In this document: piece after piece, positions 4,050 to 25,703 of the stretch | Numbering within the stretch: position 1 is the stretch's first letter | Layout of the letters: the number at the start of each line of letters is the position of its first letter | NCBI RefSeq assembly: GCF_944390595.1 | Contig: NZ_CALXRN010000119.1 | Coordinates: forward strand, 1-64,000 | DNA from: an uncultured Brachyspira sp. | GTDB lineage: Bacteria > Spirochaetota > Brachyspiria > Brachyspirales > Brachyspiraceae | Length of the DNA stretch: 64,000 nucleotides | Direction: 5' to 3' | The notes under the pieces: model-generated | What the model saw: only the letters and a program-made list of their open reading frames with translations | Told to the model about the DNA's origin: nothing | Database searches by the model: none | Made by a program: the position numbers and the translations under genes

Positions 4050-5312
4050 TTATACAATACCTTGGTATTTATTAATAATACTTATAGTTCTTTGAGAAGC
4101 TCCGTTATTTTGTCTTAACAGATTATATGCTTTTTCAGATAGTTCGTCTCTAAGTTCTTTATTTTTATATGCAAGTTCTATAGTTTCATGCAATTTATTT
4201 TTATCTTCGCAAGTAAATACAGCATCTTTCATATACTCATAAATATCTATAAAATTATACATATATTTGCCAACTATAACAGGCTTCTTGAAATATATAG
4301 CCTCTAGTATATTATGTCCGCCTACATTTCCTATAAAAGTACCGCCCATAATAACCAAATCAGATAATTTATACCAATTTAATAATTCGCCTATAGTATC
4401 AATTATTATTCCGTCTTCGGAACTATTTTCATAATCTGTATAAAGAGGCAAATTATATCCTAGTTTGGAAGCAGTATTTTGTATATCTTCTCCCCTATTA
4501 ATATCTCTTGGAACTATTACAATATAAACATTATCTTTTATTCCAAGCATATCAATTGCTTTGAGTATTATCTCCTCTTCATTAGAATGAGTACTTCCTG
4601 CTGTTATAACAAATTTATTAACTGGTATTCTATTCTCTAAATCATCTATTTTTTTCTCATTGGCATAATAATTTATATCATATTTTAAATTTCCGGTAAC
4701 GGTTATAAGTCCCTCAGGCATTCCTATACTGATCATATTTTCTTTATCTATATGGCTTTGGGCAAGAATCTTTGTATACATATTAAAATAGGGTTTAAAG
4801 AAAAATTTAAAATTTTTATAGCCTTTTATTTCTTTCTTTCCAATTCTTCCATTTATCATATAAAGAGGTATTAATTTTTTATGAAGCATATAAATAAATG
4901 TAGGCCATATCTCAATTTCAGCTATCATTACATATTCAGGAGATATTAAATTAATAAGTTTATTTATCATATGAGGATAATCCAATGTTAAATAAAATAA
5001 TTCAACCTTTTCCCCATAGTTTTTTTTAGCTATATCATATCCGCCGACAGTAGTAGTTGATAAATAAACACTGTATCCTCTCTCTATTAAAGTAAAAACT
5101 ATTTCTTTTACAGCAACTATCTCGCCTACACTTACAGCATGTATCCAAACAGCATTTTTATTATTTTCTTTGGGATATATAAAACCTAATCTTGATAAAG
5201 CGCCTTTTCTAATAGGTTTATTAAAAATCATCATTATAGAAAAACATATAAATATTATAGGATAAATAATATAACCAAATACAGTATATATAAACATTAA
5301 AATTTTTTGCAT
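4050..5312 (-). CDS. kdtA: 3-deoxy-D-manno-octulosonic-acid transferase
   Basis: KdtA/WaaA transfers Kdo from CMP-Kdo to lipid A precursors at the inner membrane, starting the lipooligosaccharide core. An N-terminal membrane anchor occupies residues 5-30. The family segments WIHAVSVGE (about 55-63), AEIEIWP (about 131-137) and AGSTH followed by EEE (about 239-248) are present, and a GGHNILEA nucleotide-sugar motif lies near 330. The 420-residue length is typical. It follows a small membrane protein by 18 bases, so they are probably cotranscribed. Together with gmhA and the GT9 enzyme it shows that a Kdo-heptose core is made. No CMP-Kdo synthesis gene is in view. Confidence 0.93.
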   Translation of the reverse strand: MQKILMFIYTVFGYIIYPIIFICFSIMMIFNKPIRKGALSRLGFIYPKENNKNAVWIHAVSVGEIVAVKEIVFTLIERGYSVYLSTTTVGGYDIAKKNYGEKVELFYLTLDYPHMINKLINLISPEYVMIAEIEIWPTFIYMLHKKLIPLYMINGRIGKKEIKGYKNFKFFFKPYFNMYTKILAQSHIDKENMISIGMPEGLITVTGNLKYDINYYANEKKIDDLENRIPVNKFVITAGSTHSNEEEIILKAIDMLGIKDNVYIVIVPRDINRGEDIQNTASKLGYNLPLYTDYENSSEDGIIIDTIGELLNWYKLSDLVIMGGTFIGNVGGHNILEAIYFKKPVIVGKYMYNFIDIYEYMKDAVFTCEDKNKLHETIELAYKNKELRDELSEKAYNLLRQNNGASQRTISIINKYQGIV

Positions 5313-17359: not shown

Positions 17360-17393
17360 AAGCCTAATTTTATTATAAATTAGGCTTTTTTTT
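17360..17393 (+). terminator. trxA terminator
   Basis: The arms AAGCCTAATTT and AAATTAGGCTT are followed by an eight-T run, a textbook intrinsic terminator. Confidence 0.9.
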
Positions 17394-17416
17394 ATTCTAA
17401 ATTGATATATAATAAG

Positions 17417-17453
17417 AACATGTTTTGAAAATAAATTATGGGTGAAACATGTT
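17417..17453 (+). promoter_or_regulatory. Inverted repeat spanning a start codon
   Basis: AACATGTTT (17417-17425) and AAACATGTT (17445-17453) are perfect reverse complements. The second arm contains the ATG of the HU-like gene and the weak ribosome-binding site GGGTG is in the loop. It could be a protein-binding palindrome or an RNA hairpin that limits translation. Confidence 0.35.
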
Positions 17454-19245
17454 TATAAACAATAATAAATTAATAGAAAATATTTCAAATGAATTTGATA
17501 TAGAAAAAGAAGAAGTCAATAATATAATAAATAACCTGTTTGGAAATATATCTCTGTCTATACTTAATGGCAAAAAATTTTATATGGATAAGTTGGGTGT
17601 AATAAGTATAGATGATAATTTAAATGTCGTTCTATCAAATAATGAAGAAAATTTCGATGAATCATTAGAATCTATCGATGTAAAAAACAATGATATTAAA
17701 AACATATTTTTAGAAAAATCTATATATAAAAGCATATTTAAAAACATAAAAGATATTTCCAGAGAAGAAGAAGTACATATAGAAAATTTTGGTTATTTTC
17801 ATAGCTCTTCAATATCATTTAAAATAGATCCTATTTTTCAAAATATAATATCTATTAAATTTAATAAAGATGATAAAGATAATTCAAATATAAATAATGA
17901 TGATTTAATAAAAAAACTAGATACAACATTAGAAGATATATGTAATAAGGAAAAAGGAACTAGTAATAATGAAAATAAAGAAGTAGTCGAAGATATATTA
18001 GATGAATTAGATAATAGAGCAAATATAGAAAATACTCATGAAAATTATGAAGAAGATATGGTAGAAATTGTTGATGATAATAATTATAACGATGACAGTT
18101 ATAACGAAGAAAATGATGATTCAATAGATAATAATGTGATAGGAAATATATGGAAAAACCAATCTTGTGAATCTAATATTGAAAATAATAATGAAGAAGA
18201 ATATAACAATAACTATACAATAGATGATATAATAAATAGTAATGAAAATTACATAGAAGATAATATAATAGAAGAGGATACTATAGAAGATAAAGAAGAA
18301 AGAGAAAATGACTATCCTGAAATGAAAGAACATACAAAAGAAGAGTTATTAGATATAAATAATTTTGATAGTTCAGATTTAAAAAATATTGATGAAGGAA
18401 GGATTGAAGAAAATATGGAAAAAGAAATAAATGACAAAACGTCTTCACAAGAAGAATTATTAAATGCTAGCAGAAGCAACGAAGATTTACTAGAAACTTC
18501 TAAAAGAGAAAGTTTAGAAGTATTAAATAAATATGAAAATGAAATAAAAAATGTTCAGCAATCAAGTACAGATAGTAAGAAAAATAATATTCAAAAAAAA
18601 TCGTCAAGTCTATTTGGCGGAATTCTAAAAGTTGTTTGTATAATAATATTTATATTAATAGTAGGTGTAATTATATCTAATTACTATAATAAAAGCAGCA
18701 GTATTTCAGCCAGTAATAATGTAGAAAATCAAAAATTATATGATATAGTTAATACATATTTTAATGAAATTAATTCTACTAGCTTATCATACATAACTTC
18801 TAAGGATATGTATTATTGGGATATAGCAAAATCTTTATATGGCGACGCTACTTATTGGCCTTTAATATATTCATATAATAGCGGAGAATATAAAATAAGC
18901 AATATAATAAAAAAAGGCAGCAGTATTTCATATAAAAGTTTGCAGAAGCCTACTTCTACAAAAGATATAAAATTATTAAATAATACAATATCAAAATCTT
19001 ATATATCAATTTATCCTATATTGGTTAATGATAAAAAACTTAGCCATTCATTATGGGCTTTAAAATTATCTGCCTATTATGATATTAATGTATTTAAAAA
19101 TAATGCTTCAATTATGCCGGAACAAACATATAATGATATTTTGAGAGAAAACAACGGCATAAAAAACATATACAGTGATATGGTAAATAATGAAAATGTA
19201 TTTGTCTCATTTATTGAAAACATCAAACAAAAATTAGGAATTTAA
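17449..19245 (+). CDS. HU-like / acidic linker / TM / LysM-like protein
   Basis: The 598-residue product has an uncommon layout. Residues 1-60 look like an HU/IHF monomer ('LIENISNEFDIEKEEVNNII' and 'NGKKFYMDKLGVISI'). A second degenerate HU-like unit spans about 80-142, with 'EEVHIENFGYF'. A long Asp/Glu/Asn-rich linker (about 145-385) follows. One transmembrane helix lies at about 390-412, and beyond it a LysM-like segment (about 450-495, with 'YYWDIAKSLYGDATYWPLIY') and a further unknown region. Topology would place the HU part in the cytoplasm and the LysM part in the periplasm. It is followed after 2 bases by the NAD(P)HX repair gene. HU-plus-wall-binding proteins are known in Bacteroidetes (HU-CCDC81-SPOR). 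DNA binding is not shown. Confidence 0.75.
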   Translation: MFINNNKLIENISNEFDIEKEEVNNIINNLFGNISLSILNGKKFYMDKLGVISIDDNLNVVLSNNEENFDESLESIDVKNNDIKNIFLEKSIYKSIFKNIKDISREEEVHIENFGYFHSSSISFKIDPIFQNIISIKFNKDDKDNSNINNDDLIKKLDTTLEDICNKEKGTSNNENKEVVEDILDELDNRANIENTHENYEEDMVEIVDDNNYNDDSYNEENDDSIDNNVIGNIWKNQSCESNIENNNEEEYNNNYTIDDIINSNENYIEDNIIEEDTIEDKEERENDYPEMKEHTKEELLDINNFDSSDLKNIDEGRIEENMEKEINDKTSSQEELLNASRSNEDLLETSKRESLEVLNKYENEIKNVQQSSTDSKKNNIQKKSSSLFGGILKVVCIIIFILIVGVIISNYYNKSSSISASNNVENQKLYDIVNTYFNEINSTSLSYITSKDMYYWDIAKSLYGDATYWPLIYSYNSGEYKISNIIKKGSSISYKSLQKPTSTKDIKLLNNTISKSYISIYPILVNDKKLSHSLWALKLSAYYDINVFKNNASIMPEQTYNDILRENNGIKNIYSDMVNNENVFVSFIENIKQKLGI

Positions 19246-19247
19246 AA

Positions 19248-20789
19248 ATGAAAGTTGTAACAACAGATGATTTAATAAATATAGATAAAAAAACTATTGA
19301 AAAAATACCATCTATACTTCTTATGGAGCATGTTGCAAGTGAAATATTTTATCTATTATTAAGAAGACATAGAAAATTATTATATAATAAAACTGTATAT
19401 ATATTTTCTTCTGTAGGAGGAAACGGAGGAGATGGGCTTGCTATAGCTAGATATTTAATAAAAAATGGGTATGATGTAAATATTTATATTACAGGAAATC
19501 TTGACAGAGTAAATAAAGATACTTATGCTAATTTTAATATACTAAAATCAATTAATGCTGATATAACATATTTAAATAGCGAGGAAACTGTAAGAGAAGC
19601 AGTTGAATCCATAGAAAAAAAATCTATAGTTATCGATTCATTATTTGGAACAGGAGGAAACAGACCTCTTGAAGGAATACAAAAATTATTAATAGACAAA
19701 CTCAATGATCTTGATGTAATTAGAATAGCTATAGATATGCCTTCAGGTTTAGCTTCTAAAATTAATGATAATGAAAATATTTATTCATGTTTTAAAGCTC
19801 ATGAAACTTATACAGTATGTTTTGCTAAAGATATATTTTTCTTATACAGAACTAGAGAATATATAGGAAAATTATTTATAATAAAATCAGTATTTCCAGA
19901 TCATATATTGGATAGCTGGGAATATAAAGCTAAATTGATAGATTATAATGAAAAAATAAATATAAATAGAAATGCATTTTTCAGCAAAAGAGAACAGGGA
20001 ATGCTTGCTATTATAGCAGGCAGCGGTAATTATATAGGTGCTGCAATATTATCAGCACATGCTGCTTACAGACTAGGTGTAGGATATATAAGATTGTATG
20101 TACCTAATGGAATAGTAAAAAATATAAGAGATGCTGTAATGTCAACAATGCCTGAAATAGTTATTATAGGTGTAGGACAAGAAAATCAAATGTATTTCAC
20201 AGAAAATGATGTGGATATAGTAAATGATATAAATAAAAACGATGCATGCATAATAGGTTCCGGTATAGGAAGAGAAATGCCTACAGAAGTTTTTGTAAAC
20301 ACTATTATAAAGCAAATAAATATACCTACTGTAATAGATGCGGATGCTTTATATTTAATGTTTGAAAGCACTCTTCATGAACTTAATCATAATTTTATAC
20401 TTACGCCTCATATATATGAATTTGAAAAATTAACAAGAATAAATCATATAGAAGCATTAGAAAATCCTTATGATGCATTATTAAAATACAGACAAAAAAC
20501 AAATGCTGCTTTAATTTTAAAAGATGCTGTAAGTTTTTTAATGCATTATGATGATATATATATAAATTATAATCCAAATGTTTCTATGGGTAAAGCAGGC
20601 ATGGGAGATGTTCTTGCTGGATTTATAGGAGCATTGCTTGCCAGAAGATTAAATGAATTAGATGCTTCTAAACTAGCATTAATCATACAAGCAAAATCTT
20701 TTAGAATATTATCAAAAAAACTAGGCAATGATTATATTCAGCCTAGCGACTTAGCAGATATTTCATATAGAATACTCAAAAGGATATAA
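19248..20789 (+). CDS. nnr: Bifunctional NAD(P)H-hydrate epimerase / ADP-dependent dehydratase
   Basis: This cytosolic metabolite-repair enzyme restores damaged NAD(P)H. The N-terminal YjeF epimerase domain (about 1-220) has the signature 'GGNGGDGLAIARYL' and 'DSLFGTGGNRPLEG'. The C-terminal ribokinase-fold dehydratase domain (about 235-513) has 'IAGSGNYIGAAILSAHAAYRLGVGYIRLY' elements and the nucleotide site 'NPNVSMGKAGMGDVLAGFIGALLA'. The 513-residue length matches the fused bacterial form. The ATG lies two bases after the stop of the HU-like gene, and the next gene starts 5 bases after its stop, so all three form one operon. Confidence 0.93.
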   Translation: MKVVTTDDLINIDKKTIEKIPSILLMEHVASEIFYLLLRRHRKLLYNKTVYIFSSVGGNGGDGLAIARYLIKNGYDVNIYITGNLDRVNKDTYANFNILKSINADITYLNSEETVREAVESIEKKSIVIDSLFGTGGNRPLEGIQKLLIDKLNDLDVIRIAIDMPSGLASKINDNENIYSCFKAHETYTVCFAKDIFFLYRTREYIGKLFIIKSVFPDHILDSWEYKAKLIDYNEKININRNAFFSKREQGMLAIIAGSGNYIGAAILSAHAAYRLGVGYIRLYVPNGIVKNIRDAVMSTMPEIVIIGVGQENQMYFTENDVDIVNDINKNDACIIGSGIGREMPTEVFVNTIIKQINIPTVIDADALYLMFESTLHELNHNFILTPHIYEFEKLTRINHIEALENPYDALLKYRQKTNAALILKDAVSFLMHYDDIYINYNPNVSMGKAGMGDVLAGFIGALLARRLNELDASKLALIIQAKSFRILSKKLGNDYIQPSDLADISYRILKRI

Positions 20790-20794
20790 TAAAG

Positions 20795-21352
20795 TTGCCT
20801 AGAGAAGTTTATGACCCTCAAAAACCAGAATTAGAATTTCATGCTAATAGAAAAGCAAAGCCTCCAGCTCCAAAAAGAGAGGTTAGTATATTCGCAAGAA
20901 GATGGTTTATGTTTTTATACGGTACATTCTTAACTGTTGCTGTAATTGGTATTTTATTATATAAAAGAGGCTTTTTTAATGATTTGCCTATATTTGCTGC
21001 ATTAAGAGTAAATAATGCTATAGAGGTGAAAATAAATAAAGTTGAATTTTATGATGACGGTGCTATCATAACTACAATAGAAGTAGAAAATATTAATTAT
21101 ACAAACAGCAGCAGCATAAAAAATCTTAAAGCTAATTTATCGCTTTATAAAAATAGAAAATTGATATTTTCAGGAAATGATTCATTTTATAATGTAAATT
21201 TTCCATTGGGACAAAGAATAGGATTTCAAATGCCTTTTGATAAAAGCTACTGGATGGAAGCAAATAATTTACAAGTTGTGCTTTATGTAGATACTAATTT
21301 AACAACCACAAACTATATCAATATAAGCAAGATGAAAAAGCCTACATCATAA
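20795..21352 (+). CDS. Single-pass membrane protein of unknown function
   Basis: The 185-residue product starts with TTG, has a basic proline-rich N-terminus, one transmembrane helix (about 38-58), and an outside beta-rich domain (about 75-180). Its pattern 'VKINKVEFYDDGAIITTIEVENINYTNSSS' resembles LEA2-like or FxLYD beta-sandwich folds, but I cannot confirm the family. It is the third gene of the HU-like/nnr operon, with AAGGA about 12 bases upstream of the TTG. The presence of two membrane proteins with extracytoplasmic domains beside nnr suggests an envelope role for the outer two genes. Confidence 0.65.
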   Translation: MPREVYDPQKPELEFHANRKAKPPAPKREVSIFARRWFMFLYGTFLTVAVIGILLYKRGFFNDLPIFAALRVNNAIEVKINKVEFYDDGAIITTIEVENINYTNSSSIKNLKANLSLYKNRKLIFSGNDSFYNVNFPLGQRIGFQMPFDKSYWMEANNLQVVLYVDTNLTTTNYINISKMKKPTS

Positions 21353-21834: not shown

Positions 21835-22965
21835 TTAATTAATATTAATTCTTCTGTTTATATCAAAATCTCCACGCATACCTGTAAGAATATAGCCTAT
21901 ATCCTGCATATTTTTTTTAAGACTTTCTACCCCTTCTGCAGATTCAGTTCCTGTTGCTATTTTATCATTATAAAGCAAATATTTTTTTCTTACATCCATA
22001 GGTGATAAATTAGGCATAACAACATTAGAACCATGAAGTATGCCAAGTTCTCTGCCGCCTTCTTTAATTGTACCTAAAGCCGTAGTAGCTGGTATTAATG
22101 CCAAAGGAAAAATTAAACGAAGCATGCTTATAAGTATTAAAGTAAGTTCTAATTCTCCCTTTTTTTCATTGGCAAATGGCGTGTCTTTATGAGGAAGAAA
22201 AGGGCCTATTCCTATCATTTCAGGTTTTATTTCCTGCATAAAAACAAAATCATCAGCAATATTTTCTAAAGTTTGATAAGGGCTTCCAACCATTATACCT
22301 GTGCCTGTTTGATAACCTAATTTTTTCAAAGTCCTTAAACATTCTTTTCTATTTTCTAAACTCATATCATTAGGATGAAGTTTTGAATAATGCCAATTAT
22401 CTGAAGTTTCATGTCTAAGTAAAAATCTATTGGCACCTTTTTCCTTCAATGCCTTATAATATTCTTCTTCTTTTTCTCCTATTGATAATGTTAAAGCACA
22501 ATCCGGATATTTTGTTTTAATTGCTTCAACTATATCAGACATTATATTTATATTATAATAAGGGTCTTCACCGCCCTGAAGTACAAAAGTTCTAAACCCT
22601 ATTTCATAACCAAGTTCGCAGCATGATAAAATATCATCTTTATTCAATCTATAATGCTCTGCATTTTTATTGCTTTTTCTTATTCCGCAATATATACAGT
22701 CATTTTTACAATAGTTAGTAAACTCTATAAGCCCACGCATAAAAACATATTTGCCGAATACTTTATCAGCTTTTTCTCTTGCCTTTACTCTTAAATATTC
22801 TTTTAAATTTTTTACTTCTTCTTTTTCTTCATCATTGAAATTTTTTATATTGATATTATTATCATATTCAAAAGATGATAAAAGAGTGAAAGCATCTTCT
22901 CTTGATATTTTTTCTTCTATTTCTATTTTATTAATAATTTCTTTTGCTTTATTTATATTAATCAA
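21835..22965 (-). CDS. hydE: FeFe-hydrogenase maturase HydE (radical SAM)
   Basis: HydE is a radical SAM enzyme that helps build the azadithiolate-bridged diiron subcluster of FeFe hydrogenase. The CxxxCxxC cluster motif is at C86, C90 and C93 (CKNDCIYC). 'QGGEDPYY' and 'RHETSDNWHYSKLHP' are HydE/BioB-like segments. The 376-residue length is normal. Translation starts at TTG with AAAGGA about 9 bases before. The gene is last in the TM1266-hydG-hydF-hydE set, 27 bases after hydF. Confidence 0.93.
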   Translation of the reverse strand: MININKAKEIINKIEIEEKISREDAFTLLSSFEYDNNINIKNFNDEEKEEVKNLKEYLRVKAREKADKVFGKYVFMRGLIEFTNYCKNDCIYCGIRKSNKNAEHYRLNKDDILSCCELGYEIGFRTFVLQGGEDPYYNINIMSDIVEAIKTKYPDCALTLSIGEKEEEYYKALKEKGANRFLLRHETSDNWHYSKLHPNDMSLENRKECLRTLKKLGYQTGTGIMVGSPYQTLENIADDFVFMQEIKPEMIGIGPFLPHKDTPFANEKKGELELTLILISMLRLIFPLALIPATTALGTIKEGGRELGILHGSNVVMPNLSPMDVRKKYLLYNDKIATGTESAEGVESLKKNMQDIGYILTGMRGDFDINRRININ

Positions 22966-22992
22966 ATTTATATTTCCTTTATTTAAAATAAA

Positions 22993-24177
22993 TTATATAT
23001 ATTGAACACCATTAATCTTTGCTATAGTCATGCCGTAATTAGTTATAGGTACATTCTGTTCTTCGCATATTCTTATTCTATTTAAAATATGTTTTCTAGT
23101 ACCCATACATCCTCCGCAATGTATAACTAAATCATATTTTGATAAATCTCTTGGAAAATCATTACCTGCAACATAATCTATACTAAAATCAAATCCGAAT
23201 TTCTTTTTTAATAAATTAGGAATTTTTACTCTTCCTATATCACCTTCAAGCGGTATATGAGTGCAGCTTTCTGCTATTAATATTTTACTCTCATTTGTTA
23301 GACTATCTATAAAATCAGCACCTCTTTTGTATACTTCTTCATTTCCTTTATAACGAGCAAAAAGAACTGAAAAAGAAGTTAATAAACTTTCTTTAGGTTT
23401 TAATCTTTCTACCTCTTTAAAAACTTGAGAATCTGTTATTATCACTTTAGGTGCCTTACTTAATGCTTTTAATGCATTTTCAAATTTATCAAATGTCGAA
23501 GCAATTATTACAGCTTTATTGTCTAAAATATCTCTTATAGTTTGAACTTGAGGAAGAATCAATCTGCCTTTAGGAGCTTGAATATCCTGAGGCATAACAA
23601 GCATTACAATATCATCTTCTTTTATTATATGTCCTGTTATACTTATTTCTTCTGTTTTAGGTATAGTTAATTTTATAGTTTCTATTAATTTATCTATATT
23701 AATTTTATTATCAGCACTTATTGAAACTGTTTCTAAATCAAATATATCTTTTATATTTTGTTCTATATTTTTATAATCATTATTTAAATCTATTTTATTT
23801 AAAATGGCTATAATTGGTATCTCTAAACTTGTAAGTTCATTTTTCCATTTCAACTCTAACAAATAATCATTATCTTTAAAAGAAGCATCAAAAACAAGCA
23901 AAGCAATATCAGCTGACTCCATTATTTTTTTAGTTCTTTCTATTCTTAAAGCTCCAAGCTCACCCTCATCATCAAAACCTGCAGTATCAACAATAGTACA
24001 TGCTCCCATACCATTTATTTCTATAGCCTTTTTTACAGGGTCTGTAGTTGTTCCTGCAGTATTAGAAACTATTGCTATATCCTGATTTGCAATTGCATTT
24101 ATAATACTTGATTTACCTGCATTTCTTCTTCCAAATATTGCAATATGAGTTCTGTTTGAATTTGGTGTATCATTCAT
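22993..24177 (-). CDS. hydF: FeFe-hydrogenase maturation GTPase HydF
   Basis: HydF is the GTPase scaffold on which the diiron subcluster is assembled and delivered to HydA. The P-loop GRRNAGKSS is at 16-24, the switch region 'NTAGTTTDPV' near 39-48, DTAGFDD near 62-68 and NKID near 121-124. The C-terminal cluster-binding residues appear as CTH and HCGGC, with the typical downstream 'NYG'. I start at 24177 because AGGAAC precedes it and HydF proteins begin just before the P-loop; an upstream in-frame ATG at 24240 adds unsupported residues. Confidence 0.93.
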   Translation of the reverse strand: MNDTPNSNRTHIAIFGRRNAGKSSIINAIANQDIAIVSNTAGTTTDPVKKAIEINGMGACTIVDTAGFDDEGELGALRIERTKKIMESADIALLVFDASFKDNDYLLELKWKNELTSLEIPIIAILNKIDLNNDYKNIEQNIKDIFDLETVSISADNKINIDKLIETIKLTIPKTEEISITGHIIKEDDIVMLVMPQDIQAPKGRLILPQVQTIRDILDNKAVIIASTFDKFENALKALSKAPKVIITDSQVFKEVERLKPKESLLTSFSVLFARYKGNEEVYKRGADFIDSLTNESKILIAESCTHIPLEGDIGRVKIPNLLKKKFGFDFSIDYVAGNDFPRDLSKYDLVIHCGGCMGTRKHILNRIRICEEQNVPITNYGMTIAKINGVQYI

Positions 24178-24278
24178 ACTTGTTCCTATAAATAAAATTA
24201 ATTCAGCTTTCTTAATGAATGTATATTTTATTACAAACAATTAAGAAAACTGAATTAATTATAAATGAGTAATATTAA

Positions 24279-25703
24279 TTAAAATTTAAAATCTCTTCTG
24301 CCCTCATCTATACCTTTTAAAGCATCTACTAATTTTGCTTTTACCTTTTCATTAGGTACTTTTTCTATTTCATTTTCCATAACTTTATCTATTGATTTTT
24401 TAGTATCATCTTTGGCATAATCATTCTCATATTCTTTTAAAGTTATTATAGCATTAGCTTGGCAGAAATTTTTTATTTGTCCGCTCTTAGCGAAAGCCAT
24501 AAATCTATCTCCTGTTCTGCCCTCTCTGTAACAAGCTGTACAGAAGCTAGGTAAATAATCTATATCAGCAAGCCATTTTATAATATCATCAAGAGAACGG
24601 TTATCTGAAATTTCAAATTGTTTAGAATTTTCTTCTTCCTCTTCAACATATCCTCCAACGCTTGTTCTTGATCCTCCGCTTATTTGAGAAACTCCAACTT
24701 CTAAAGCTTCCTCTCTCGATTTTTGGCTTTCTCTTGTAGAAACTATTATTCCAGTATAAGGAACAGCTATTCTTAAAACTGCAACTATTTTTTTGAATAA
24801 ACTATCAACTATAGCATTAGGGAAACTTTTAACATCAACATCATCAGTAGGTCTTATTCTTGGAACACTTATAGTATGAGGGCCACATCCGAAAGTATCT
24901 TCTAAATGTTTAGCATGATAAAGCATAGCAGTAAAATCATATTTATAATCATAAAGTCCGAATAATACACCTATACCAACATCATCAATTCCGCCTTCCA
25001 TAGCTCTGTCCATTGCCTCAGTATGATATTCATAATTACTTTTTGGTCCGCTTGGATGAACTTTCTCATAAGTTGGTTTATGATATGTCTCTTGGAATAA
25101 TACATAAGTACCGATACCAGCATCTTTTAACTTTTTATAGTTTTCTACTGTAGTTGCAGCTATATTAACATTAACCCTTCTAATAGCACCGTTTTTATGC
25201 TTTATACTATATATTGTTTTTATAGACTCAAGTAAATATTCCATACTAGCATAATCAGGATCTTCTCCTGTTTCTAATGCAAGTCTTTTATGTCCCATAT
25301 CCTGCAATGCAATAACCTCTGCTCTAATCTCATCTTGAGTTAATTGTTTTCTAGCTATATGTTTGTTTTTAGCATGATAAGGGCAGTAAACGCATCCGTT
25401 AATACAATAATTTGATAGATAAAGAGGAGCAAACAAAACTATTCTTTTTCCGTATATTTCTAATTTTATTTTCTTTGCTATTTCAAACATTTCATTTTCT
25501 ACATTTTTATCATCGCAAAGAAGCAAAGCCAATGCCTCATTAGGCTCAAGACCTTTCATCTCTTTAGCTTTATCCAATATATCTCTTATATTGTAATTTC
25601 CGCTTTCCACCTGAGATATAGTTTTTAAAATTTCTTCATCATTAATAAATTCATTTGCATTTCTTGATTTTGAATCATATTTAAATAAAGTGGCTGAAGA
25701 CAT
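24279..25703 (-). CDS. hydG: FeFe-hydrogenase maturase HydG (radical SAM tyrosine lyase)
   Basis: HydG cleaves tyrosine to make the CO and CN ligands of the H-cluster. The radical SAM motif CxxxCxxC is at C100, C104 and C107 (CINGCVYC). The second-cluster motif CxxC...C near the C-terminus (about residues 392-417, CTAC then KNFC) separates HydG from ThiH. The 474-residue length is typical. The ATG follows AGGAG. It is 36 bases downstream of the TM1266-family gene and upstream of hydF. Confidence 0.95.
   Translation of the reverse strand: MSSATLFKYDSKSRNANEFINDEEILKTISQVESGNYNIRDILDKAKEMKGLEPNEALALLLCDDKNVENEMFEIAKKIKLEIYGKRIVLFAPLYLSNYCINGCVYCPYHAKNKHIARKQLTQDEIRAEVIALQDMGHKRLALETGEDPDYASMEYLLESIKTIYSIKHKNGAIRRVNVNIAATTVENYKKLKDAGIGTYVLFQETYHKPTYEKVHPSGPKSNYEYHTEAMDRAMEGGIDDVGIGVLFGLYDYKYDFTAMLYHAKHLEDTFGCGPHTISVPRIRPTDDVDVKSFPNAIVDSLFKKIVAVLRIAVPYTGIIVSTRESQKSREEALEVGVSQISGGSRTSVGGYVEEEEENSKQFEISDNRSLDDIIKWLADIDYLPSFCTACYREGRTGDRFMAFAKSGQIKNFCQANAIITLKEYENDYAKDDTKKSIDKVMENEIEKVPNEKVKAKLVDALKGIDEGRRDFKF

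Follow-up and report, generated by a model that had tools for sequence, protein, structure and literature searches.

The window, by which we mean the whole 64,000-nucleotide stretch of Brachyspira DNA analysed here, contains a gene whose product is confirmed by computation as a bitopic membrane protein composed of two HU folds, an acidic linker, one transmembrane (TM) helix, a divergent LysM domain and a helical end. Judging from sequence, we assign a probability of roughly 0.55 to the reading that this protein would connect peptidoglycan in the periplasm with the cytoplasm, its tandem HU units serving for docking or scaffolding, and that it derives from a probable tether between nucleoid and cell wall.

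HU is a near-universal DNA-packing protein. A physical link between the chromosome and peptidoglycan has long been proposed, and few proteins have been defined that would provide one.

The gene and its parts

The features discussed below, all on the plus strand, are as follows.

17360-17395, plus strand: intrinsic terminator between trxA and the HU-LysM gene (11-pair stem, then a T run)
17449-19245, plus strand: HU-HU-linker-TM-LysM gene (ATG start, 598 amino acids, one open reading frame)
17449-17679, plus strand: first HU unit (residues 1-77), which lacks arms and has a net charge of -10 (PF00216; AlphaFold2 model)
17680-17868, plus strand: predicted second HU unit (residues 78-140), which lacks arms and has a net charge of +2 (AlphaFold2 model)
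17869-18603, plus strand: acidic linker, about residues 141-385 (charge count; conserved short motifs)
18619-18675, plus strand: transmembrane helix, residues 391-409 (mean hydropathy 3.2, predicted N-in)
18781-18948, plus strand: LysM-related domain, about residues 445-500, predicted extracytoplasmic (homology to L039 and L040; profile matches)
18964-19242, plus strand: helical domain at the C-terminus, residues 506-598 (in other families, conserved together with LysM)
19248-20789, plus strand: nnr, which encodes an NAD(P)HX epimerase/dehydratase and follows in the operon after a 2-nt gap (PF03853, 5e-29; PF01256, 2e-37)
20795-21352, plus strand: gene for a small protein with one TM helix, third in the operon (Pfam gives nothing notable)

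Among the relatives compared, the closest to the 598-residue protein is L002, from B. alvinipulli ATCC 51933, with 93% identity along its length. A search with a profile of the C-terminal region recovers the gene in each of the 29 Brachyspiraceae genomes searched. Relative to L001, dN/dS is about 0.18 in HU1, 0.14 in HU2, 0.42 in the linker, 0.1 in the transmembrane helix, 0.21 in the stalk and LysM domain and 0.16 in the C-terminus. Given the ratios of 0.1-0.2 outside the linker, together with the presence of the C-terminal region in every genome, we conclude that the observation is not due to chance.

Two HU units without arms

The preliminary description of this DNA had proposed two HU-like units at the N-terminus, and both are upheld. 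The first matches PF00216 over residues 4-54, above the curated cut-off, with an E-value of 7.5e-8 when the N-terminal 149 amino acids are searched and 1.1e-4 for the whole chain. The second has no Pfam match of its own in the window protein; it is assigned as a probable HU unit from an AlphaFold2 model and from relatives, single members of which have significant HU matches in both halves. By sequence, a profile of the N-terminal region matches HU and IHF chains (best 3e-5).

Structure prediction had been suggested for this end of the protein, and the model of residues 1-146, although drawn from a shallow alignment of ten Brachyspira sequences, has a mean pLDDT of 83.7 and a pTM of 0.81; its order of elements, a-a-b-b-b-a followed by a-b-b-b-a, is that of two HU units. 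HU1 comprises helices 6-16 and 20-39, strands 44-46, 50-54 and 60-63, and helix 69-73; HU2 comprises helix 83-104, strands 109-111, 115-118 and 123-126, and helix 128-139, and its residues G115, F117 and F124 are invariant. Foldseek against the PDB pairs the model with HU chains (1riy, 1huu and 2o97, probability 0.85-0.97), but these fold matches are not significant, none having an E-value below 0.09.

As regards membership of HU/IHF, the fold is present (by PF00216 for the first unit and by the model for both), and the extended basic beta-arms are absent: in the model, the strands that would bear the arms are connected by short turns, one of 5 residues and the other of 4. The pair also lacks the NP tip motif and carries a net charge of -8. 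HU arms are reported to be required for DNA binding (PMC5683647). Canonical DNA binding is therefore unlikely for this protein, and the nucleoid end of a bridge is putative. HU2 is slightly basic, however, and this unit may yet contact DNA.

At least eight Brachyspira genomes carry two tandem HU pairs, that is four units, instead of one pair. In most of the four-unit relatives (L041, L042, L043, L044, L045, L049 and L050) the linker is shorter and much less acidic, and one four-unit relative has a neutral first HU pair. In L051, from a complete genome (G006), a single frameshift at about 4594-4610 splits the gene inside the second HU pair. If real, it would argue against a strict need for the gene; sequencing error and phase variation are the alternatives.

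Linker, membrane helix and the LysM end

A very acidic linker of about 240 residues had been described, and the count agrees: residues 141-380 have a net charge of -51, with 74 aspartates and glutamates and 45 asparagines among 240 residues. Two conserved motifs lie within it, EVVEDILDELD (178-188) and YPEMKEHTKEELLDINNFD (289-307). The linker motif YPEMKEYSKEELLDINNFD is present in a single copy in the window protein, where it differs by one or two changes, and in three copies in L046. A motif of the type V-[VI]-[ED]-[DE] follows HU2, and it can be traced as VIDE in the outgroups, VIEEDLDDI in L040 and VVEDILDEL in the window protein.

Residues 391-409 form the sole transmembrane helix, there being no second one in the 598-residue chain. 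Its flanks carry four net positive charges in the preceding 15 residues and one after it, a positive-inside bias that predicts a cytoplasmic N-terminus and an outer C-terminus. The earlier proposal of a single helix with the two ends of the protein on opposite sides thus agrees with the prediction.

The outer segment had been called LysM-like, and HU and LysM profiles had been named as a means of checking both ends. PF00216 finds HU1, as reported above, but the Pfam LysM family (PF01476) has no match in the window protein itself. The LysM identification is instead made by homology, through relatives from another family of the order that do match Pfam LysM (L040 at 2.7e-8 and L039 at 3.3e-6) and that can be aligned with the window protein along the LysM domain. 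Eight positions are invariant between them, seven of which lie in the LysM domain (Y448, W457, K461, Y464, Y469, W470 and N477). In addition, the C-terminal profile matches solved LysM proteins in the PDB (6e-5), and it matches the C-terminal profile of the outgroups at 1.5e-5 over 107 columns that cover the LysM domain and the helices. The domain is thus probably a divergent LysM, predicted to lie outside. Because its core has diverged beyond a Pfam match, peptidoglycan binding is not certain. The helical domain that follows belongs to no Pfam family that we could find, and the structure model of the C-terminus, which has a pLDDT of only 47, was left out of the fold search.

Gene neighbourhood

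The gene order is trxA, terminator, HU-LysM gene, nnr and the small single-TM gene. The scan of the region for terminators gave two, where 0.6 would be expected. Downstream, at 21835-25703 of the window, three adjacent minus-strand genes resemble, by eye, the [FeFe]-hydrogenase maturation genes HydE, HydF and HydG, and appear ordinary.

The preliminary description found it odd that the gene is joined in an operon to an NAD(P)HX-repair gene. The close spacing of the two genes is real, and nnr adjoins the HU-LysM gene in every Brachyspira neighbourhood examined and also in one other genus (L037). One could therefore explain the HU-LysM gene by a functional coupling with metabolite repair. But nnr is not adjacent in two sister-genus genomes (L036 and L038), in family f2 or in the other families examined. 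With adjacency confined to Brachyspira and a single further genus, the link to nnr is probably not functional, and we regard the coupling as very improbable. The small TM gene, in contrast, adjoins the HU-LysM gene directly in the two sister-genus genomes that lack the neighbouring nnr (L036, 3033-3587; L038, 2822-3406), and in L037 it lies just beyond nnr. Since it is retained where nnr is missing, it is the better candidate for a partner.

A two-gene form in other spirochaetes

We searched the spirochaete phylum with the C-terminal profile and then with outgroup profiles, and read the loci so found. In eight other families (f3, f4, f12, f13, f16, f19, f23 and f31) there is an overlapping gene pair, consisting of a small HU gene followed by an HU-TM-LysM gene. 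The small gene encodes 72-102 residues, and its end overlaps the start of its neighbour by 4 nt in L092, L089, L100, L152 and L153 and by 11-14 nt in L091, L133 and L134; the starts are less certain in L094 and L090.

The cassette resembles the window protein in having an HU pair, one transmembrane helix and an extracytoplasmic LysM, in the same order. In f3, f16 and f31 the likeness extends to the helical C-terminal domain, which is clearly common to these three families, and to the VIDE motif after the HU domain. The LysM of f12 and f19 is divergent and has no Pfam match; f19 is linked by profile comparison (6.9e-6). The two forms differ in that the upstream HU is a separate overlapping gene in the cassette and is fused in Brachyspirales. 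They differ also in that most cassettes retain the arms and have mostly basic HUs. The tethered HUs elsewhere are usually full length (PF00216 5-90 of 90, with E-values down to 2e-20), and most have a net charge of +3 to +15 over their first 100 residues; most of the small HUs have +7 to +16, and those of f13 and f23 are armless. Finally, most of the cassette genomes checked, unlike those of Brachyspiraceae, also have a free canonical HU elsewhere.

The two-gene form looks ancestral, and we infer that in Brachyspirales the two HUs became a single chain. The domain-for-domain orthology of the two forms, which we draw from architecture, the shared motif and weak profile scores, should be taken as probable. 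In the two-gene form we have a directly testable candidate for a link between chromosome and peptidoglycan. A tblastn search of plasmids with an outgroup HU-TM-LysM protein gave no match.

Two other loci deserve mention. L039 (3380-4312, genome G029) is a TM-LysM-helical relative that has no HU at all, in a genome with two canonical HUs, the reverse of the situation in Brachyspira. In L164 (2337-3212, genome G036) an HU domain ends a 291-residue open reading frame of another architecture.

Census of canonical HU

According to PMC5683647, HU occurs ubiquitously among bacteria. In the 29 Brachyspiraceae genomes, five of which consist of one or two contigs (G006, G008, G012, G016 and G019), PF00216 finds no canonical HU or IHF, and every recognisable HU match is the HU-LysM protein. 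A profile of canonical spirochaete HU likewise gives no match there even at an E-value of 1, but no positive control was run for this profile, and the claim of absence rests on the PF00216 searches. Of 20 other spirochaete genomes put through the same PF00216 search, 19 gave a match of 1e-16 or better; the remaining one is an order relative (G030) in which the fused protein accounts for the sole match.

In the sample of the phylum, 247 of 296 genomes have a PF00216 match at 1e-8 or better, and the 49 without one include all Brachyspiraceae. About 19 further genomes, some of them incomplete, also lack a match, and loss of HU is thus not proven to be unique to Brachyspiraceae. The best PF00216 match in f31 genomes (e.g. 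G146, G157 and G172) is weak, at about 1e-9 to 1e-10, and f31 may be a further lineage with no HU other than an unusual one.

We tentatively suggest, with somewhat less confidence than we attach to our main reading, that Brachyspiraceae gave up free HU, and that their sole HU-superfamily protein, fixed through the inner membrane to the cell wall, acts at the envelope, either as an armless holder of the chromosome or as a wall-linked protein scaffold derived from a chromosome tether. These host-associated spirochaetes, having no detectable canonical HU, present a natural experiment on the loss or repurposing of HU.

What the protein may do

In the ancestral form, the soluble and the anchored HU would heterodimerise on DNA, and the chromosome would thereby be tied to the wall. 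Brachyspirales would then have fused the two HUs and come to do without the arms and the free HU. The HU pair would have become mainly a module for docking proteins or for scaffolding, much like the CCDC81-type HU domains, and might still engage the nucleoid indirectly or through a surface other than the arms. A long, acidic, motif-bearing tether would join this pair to the membrane helix, with the LysM and helical domains placed in the periplasm. We give most weight to the docking or scaffold role. This reading as a whole, descent from a tether included, is favoured by the armless HU fold, by a net charge of -8 as against the mostly basic HUs elsewhere, by purifying selection, by the N-in topology, by the gene pairs in eight families, by the similarity of the C-terminal profiles and by the series of motifs after HU2. 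The protein-binding module GliD, as the closest structural neighbour of the model, also speaks for it, though at an E-value of 0.09.

The main rival is a direct DNA tether in Brachyspira as well: the tandem HU would bind DNA through the HU body or helix surfaces, in place of free HU, and the acidic linker would keep that binding weak and reversible. It gains from the fact that the window protein carries the only HU-superfamily match found in Brachyspiraceae, from the armed and mostly basic HUs of the ancestral forms, and from relatives with four HU units, one with the neutral first pair. We nevertheless consider it unlikely in view of the missing arms, the acidic HU1 and the missing NP tip motif. 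The bridge from nucleoid to wall that was first proposed for this protein is well motivated for the ancestral two-gene form, with its full-length arms and mostly basic HUs, but less so for Brachyspira, where the arms are gone and the charge is negative. One might also suppose that the function resides in the LysM and helical parts, acting in the periplasm on the wall or in division, and that the HU pair is only a regulatory or oligomerisation appendage. Across Brachyspirales the LysM region and the helical end do rank with the best-conserved parts of the protein, and L039, whose genome encodes free HU, has both of them and the membrane helix but no HU. But purifying selection on the HU units is just as strong (dN/dS 0.14-0.18), and these units are duplicated in some species, which makes this possibility less likely still.

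Comparison with known systems

Our literature searches found nothing relevant that joins Brachyspira with LysM or histone-like proteins, nor anything for the combinations of HU, LysM and nucleoid that we tried. Canonical HU/IHF proteins (PF00216) have the HU fold in common with the window protein, which differs in being armless, acidic, tandem and membrane-anchored. The lipoprotein or secreted LysM proteins of spirochaetes (e.g. L095-L099) share its LysM of the W-P-x-I-Y-x-x-N type, but they have no HU and a different N-terminal region.

Over its whole length, the tandem HU model is matched best by GliD, from the gliding motor of Mycoplasma mobile (PDB 9io5), with a TM-score of 0.63 over 146 columns and a Foldseek probability of 0.99, although at an E-value of 0.09 the match is not significant. 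Going by the size and copy number given in PMC11864180, chains R-W of 9io5 are probably GliD. Five of these (R, T, U, V and W) resemble the model with TM-scores of 0.58-0.63. GliD has instead been related to the b and delta subunits of F-ATPase (PMC11864180). It is a soluble motor subunit and a protein-binding module, whereas the window protein is anchored in the membrane.

The nearest described idea, as the preliminary description held, is that of the HU-CCDC81-SPOR proteins of Bacteroidota, reportedly the subject of work by Burroughs et al. in 2017. The choice is a fair one as to plan, but SPOR has no Pfam match in the window protein or its relatives. With LysM replacing SPOR, the window protein is not a member of that group. 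At E<=1, PF18175 hits 17 of the 21 relatives; it lies above its cut-off in one of those tabulated (L050, 41 bits) and scores 14.7 bits on the N-terminus of the window protein; a phylum search with it gave no match above the cut-off, and returned mostly ordinary HUs and the known family. HU-CCDC81-SPOR proteins consist of an N-terminal tandem of CCDC81-like HU domains, a linker, a transmembrane helix and a peptidoglycan-binding domain outside, and CCDC81-type HU domains are regarded as protein-docking or scaffold modules. The window protein follows the same overall plan, its HU pair being possibly of the CCDC81-like type, with a LysM and a helical domain in place of SPOR and with a long acidic linker.
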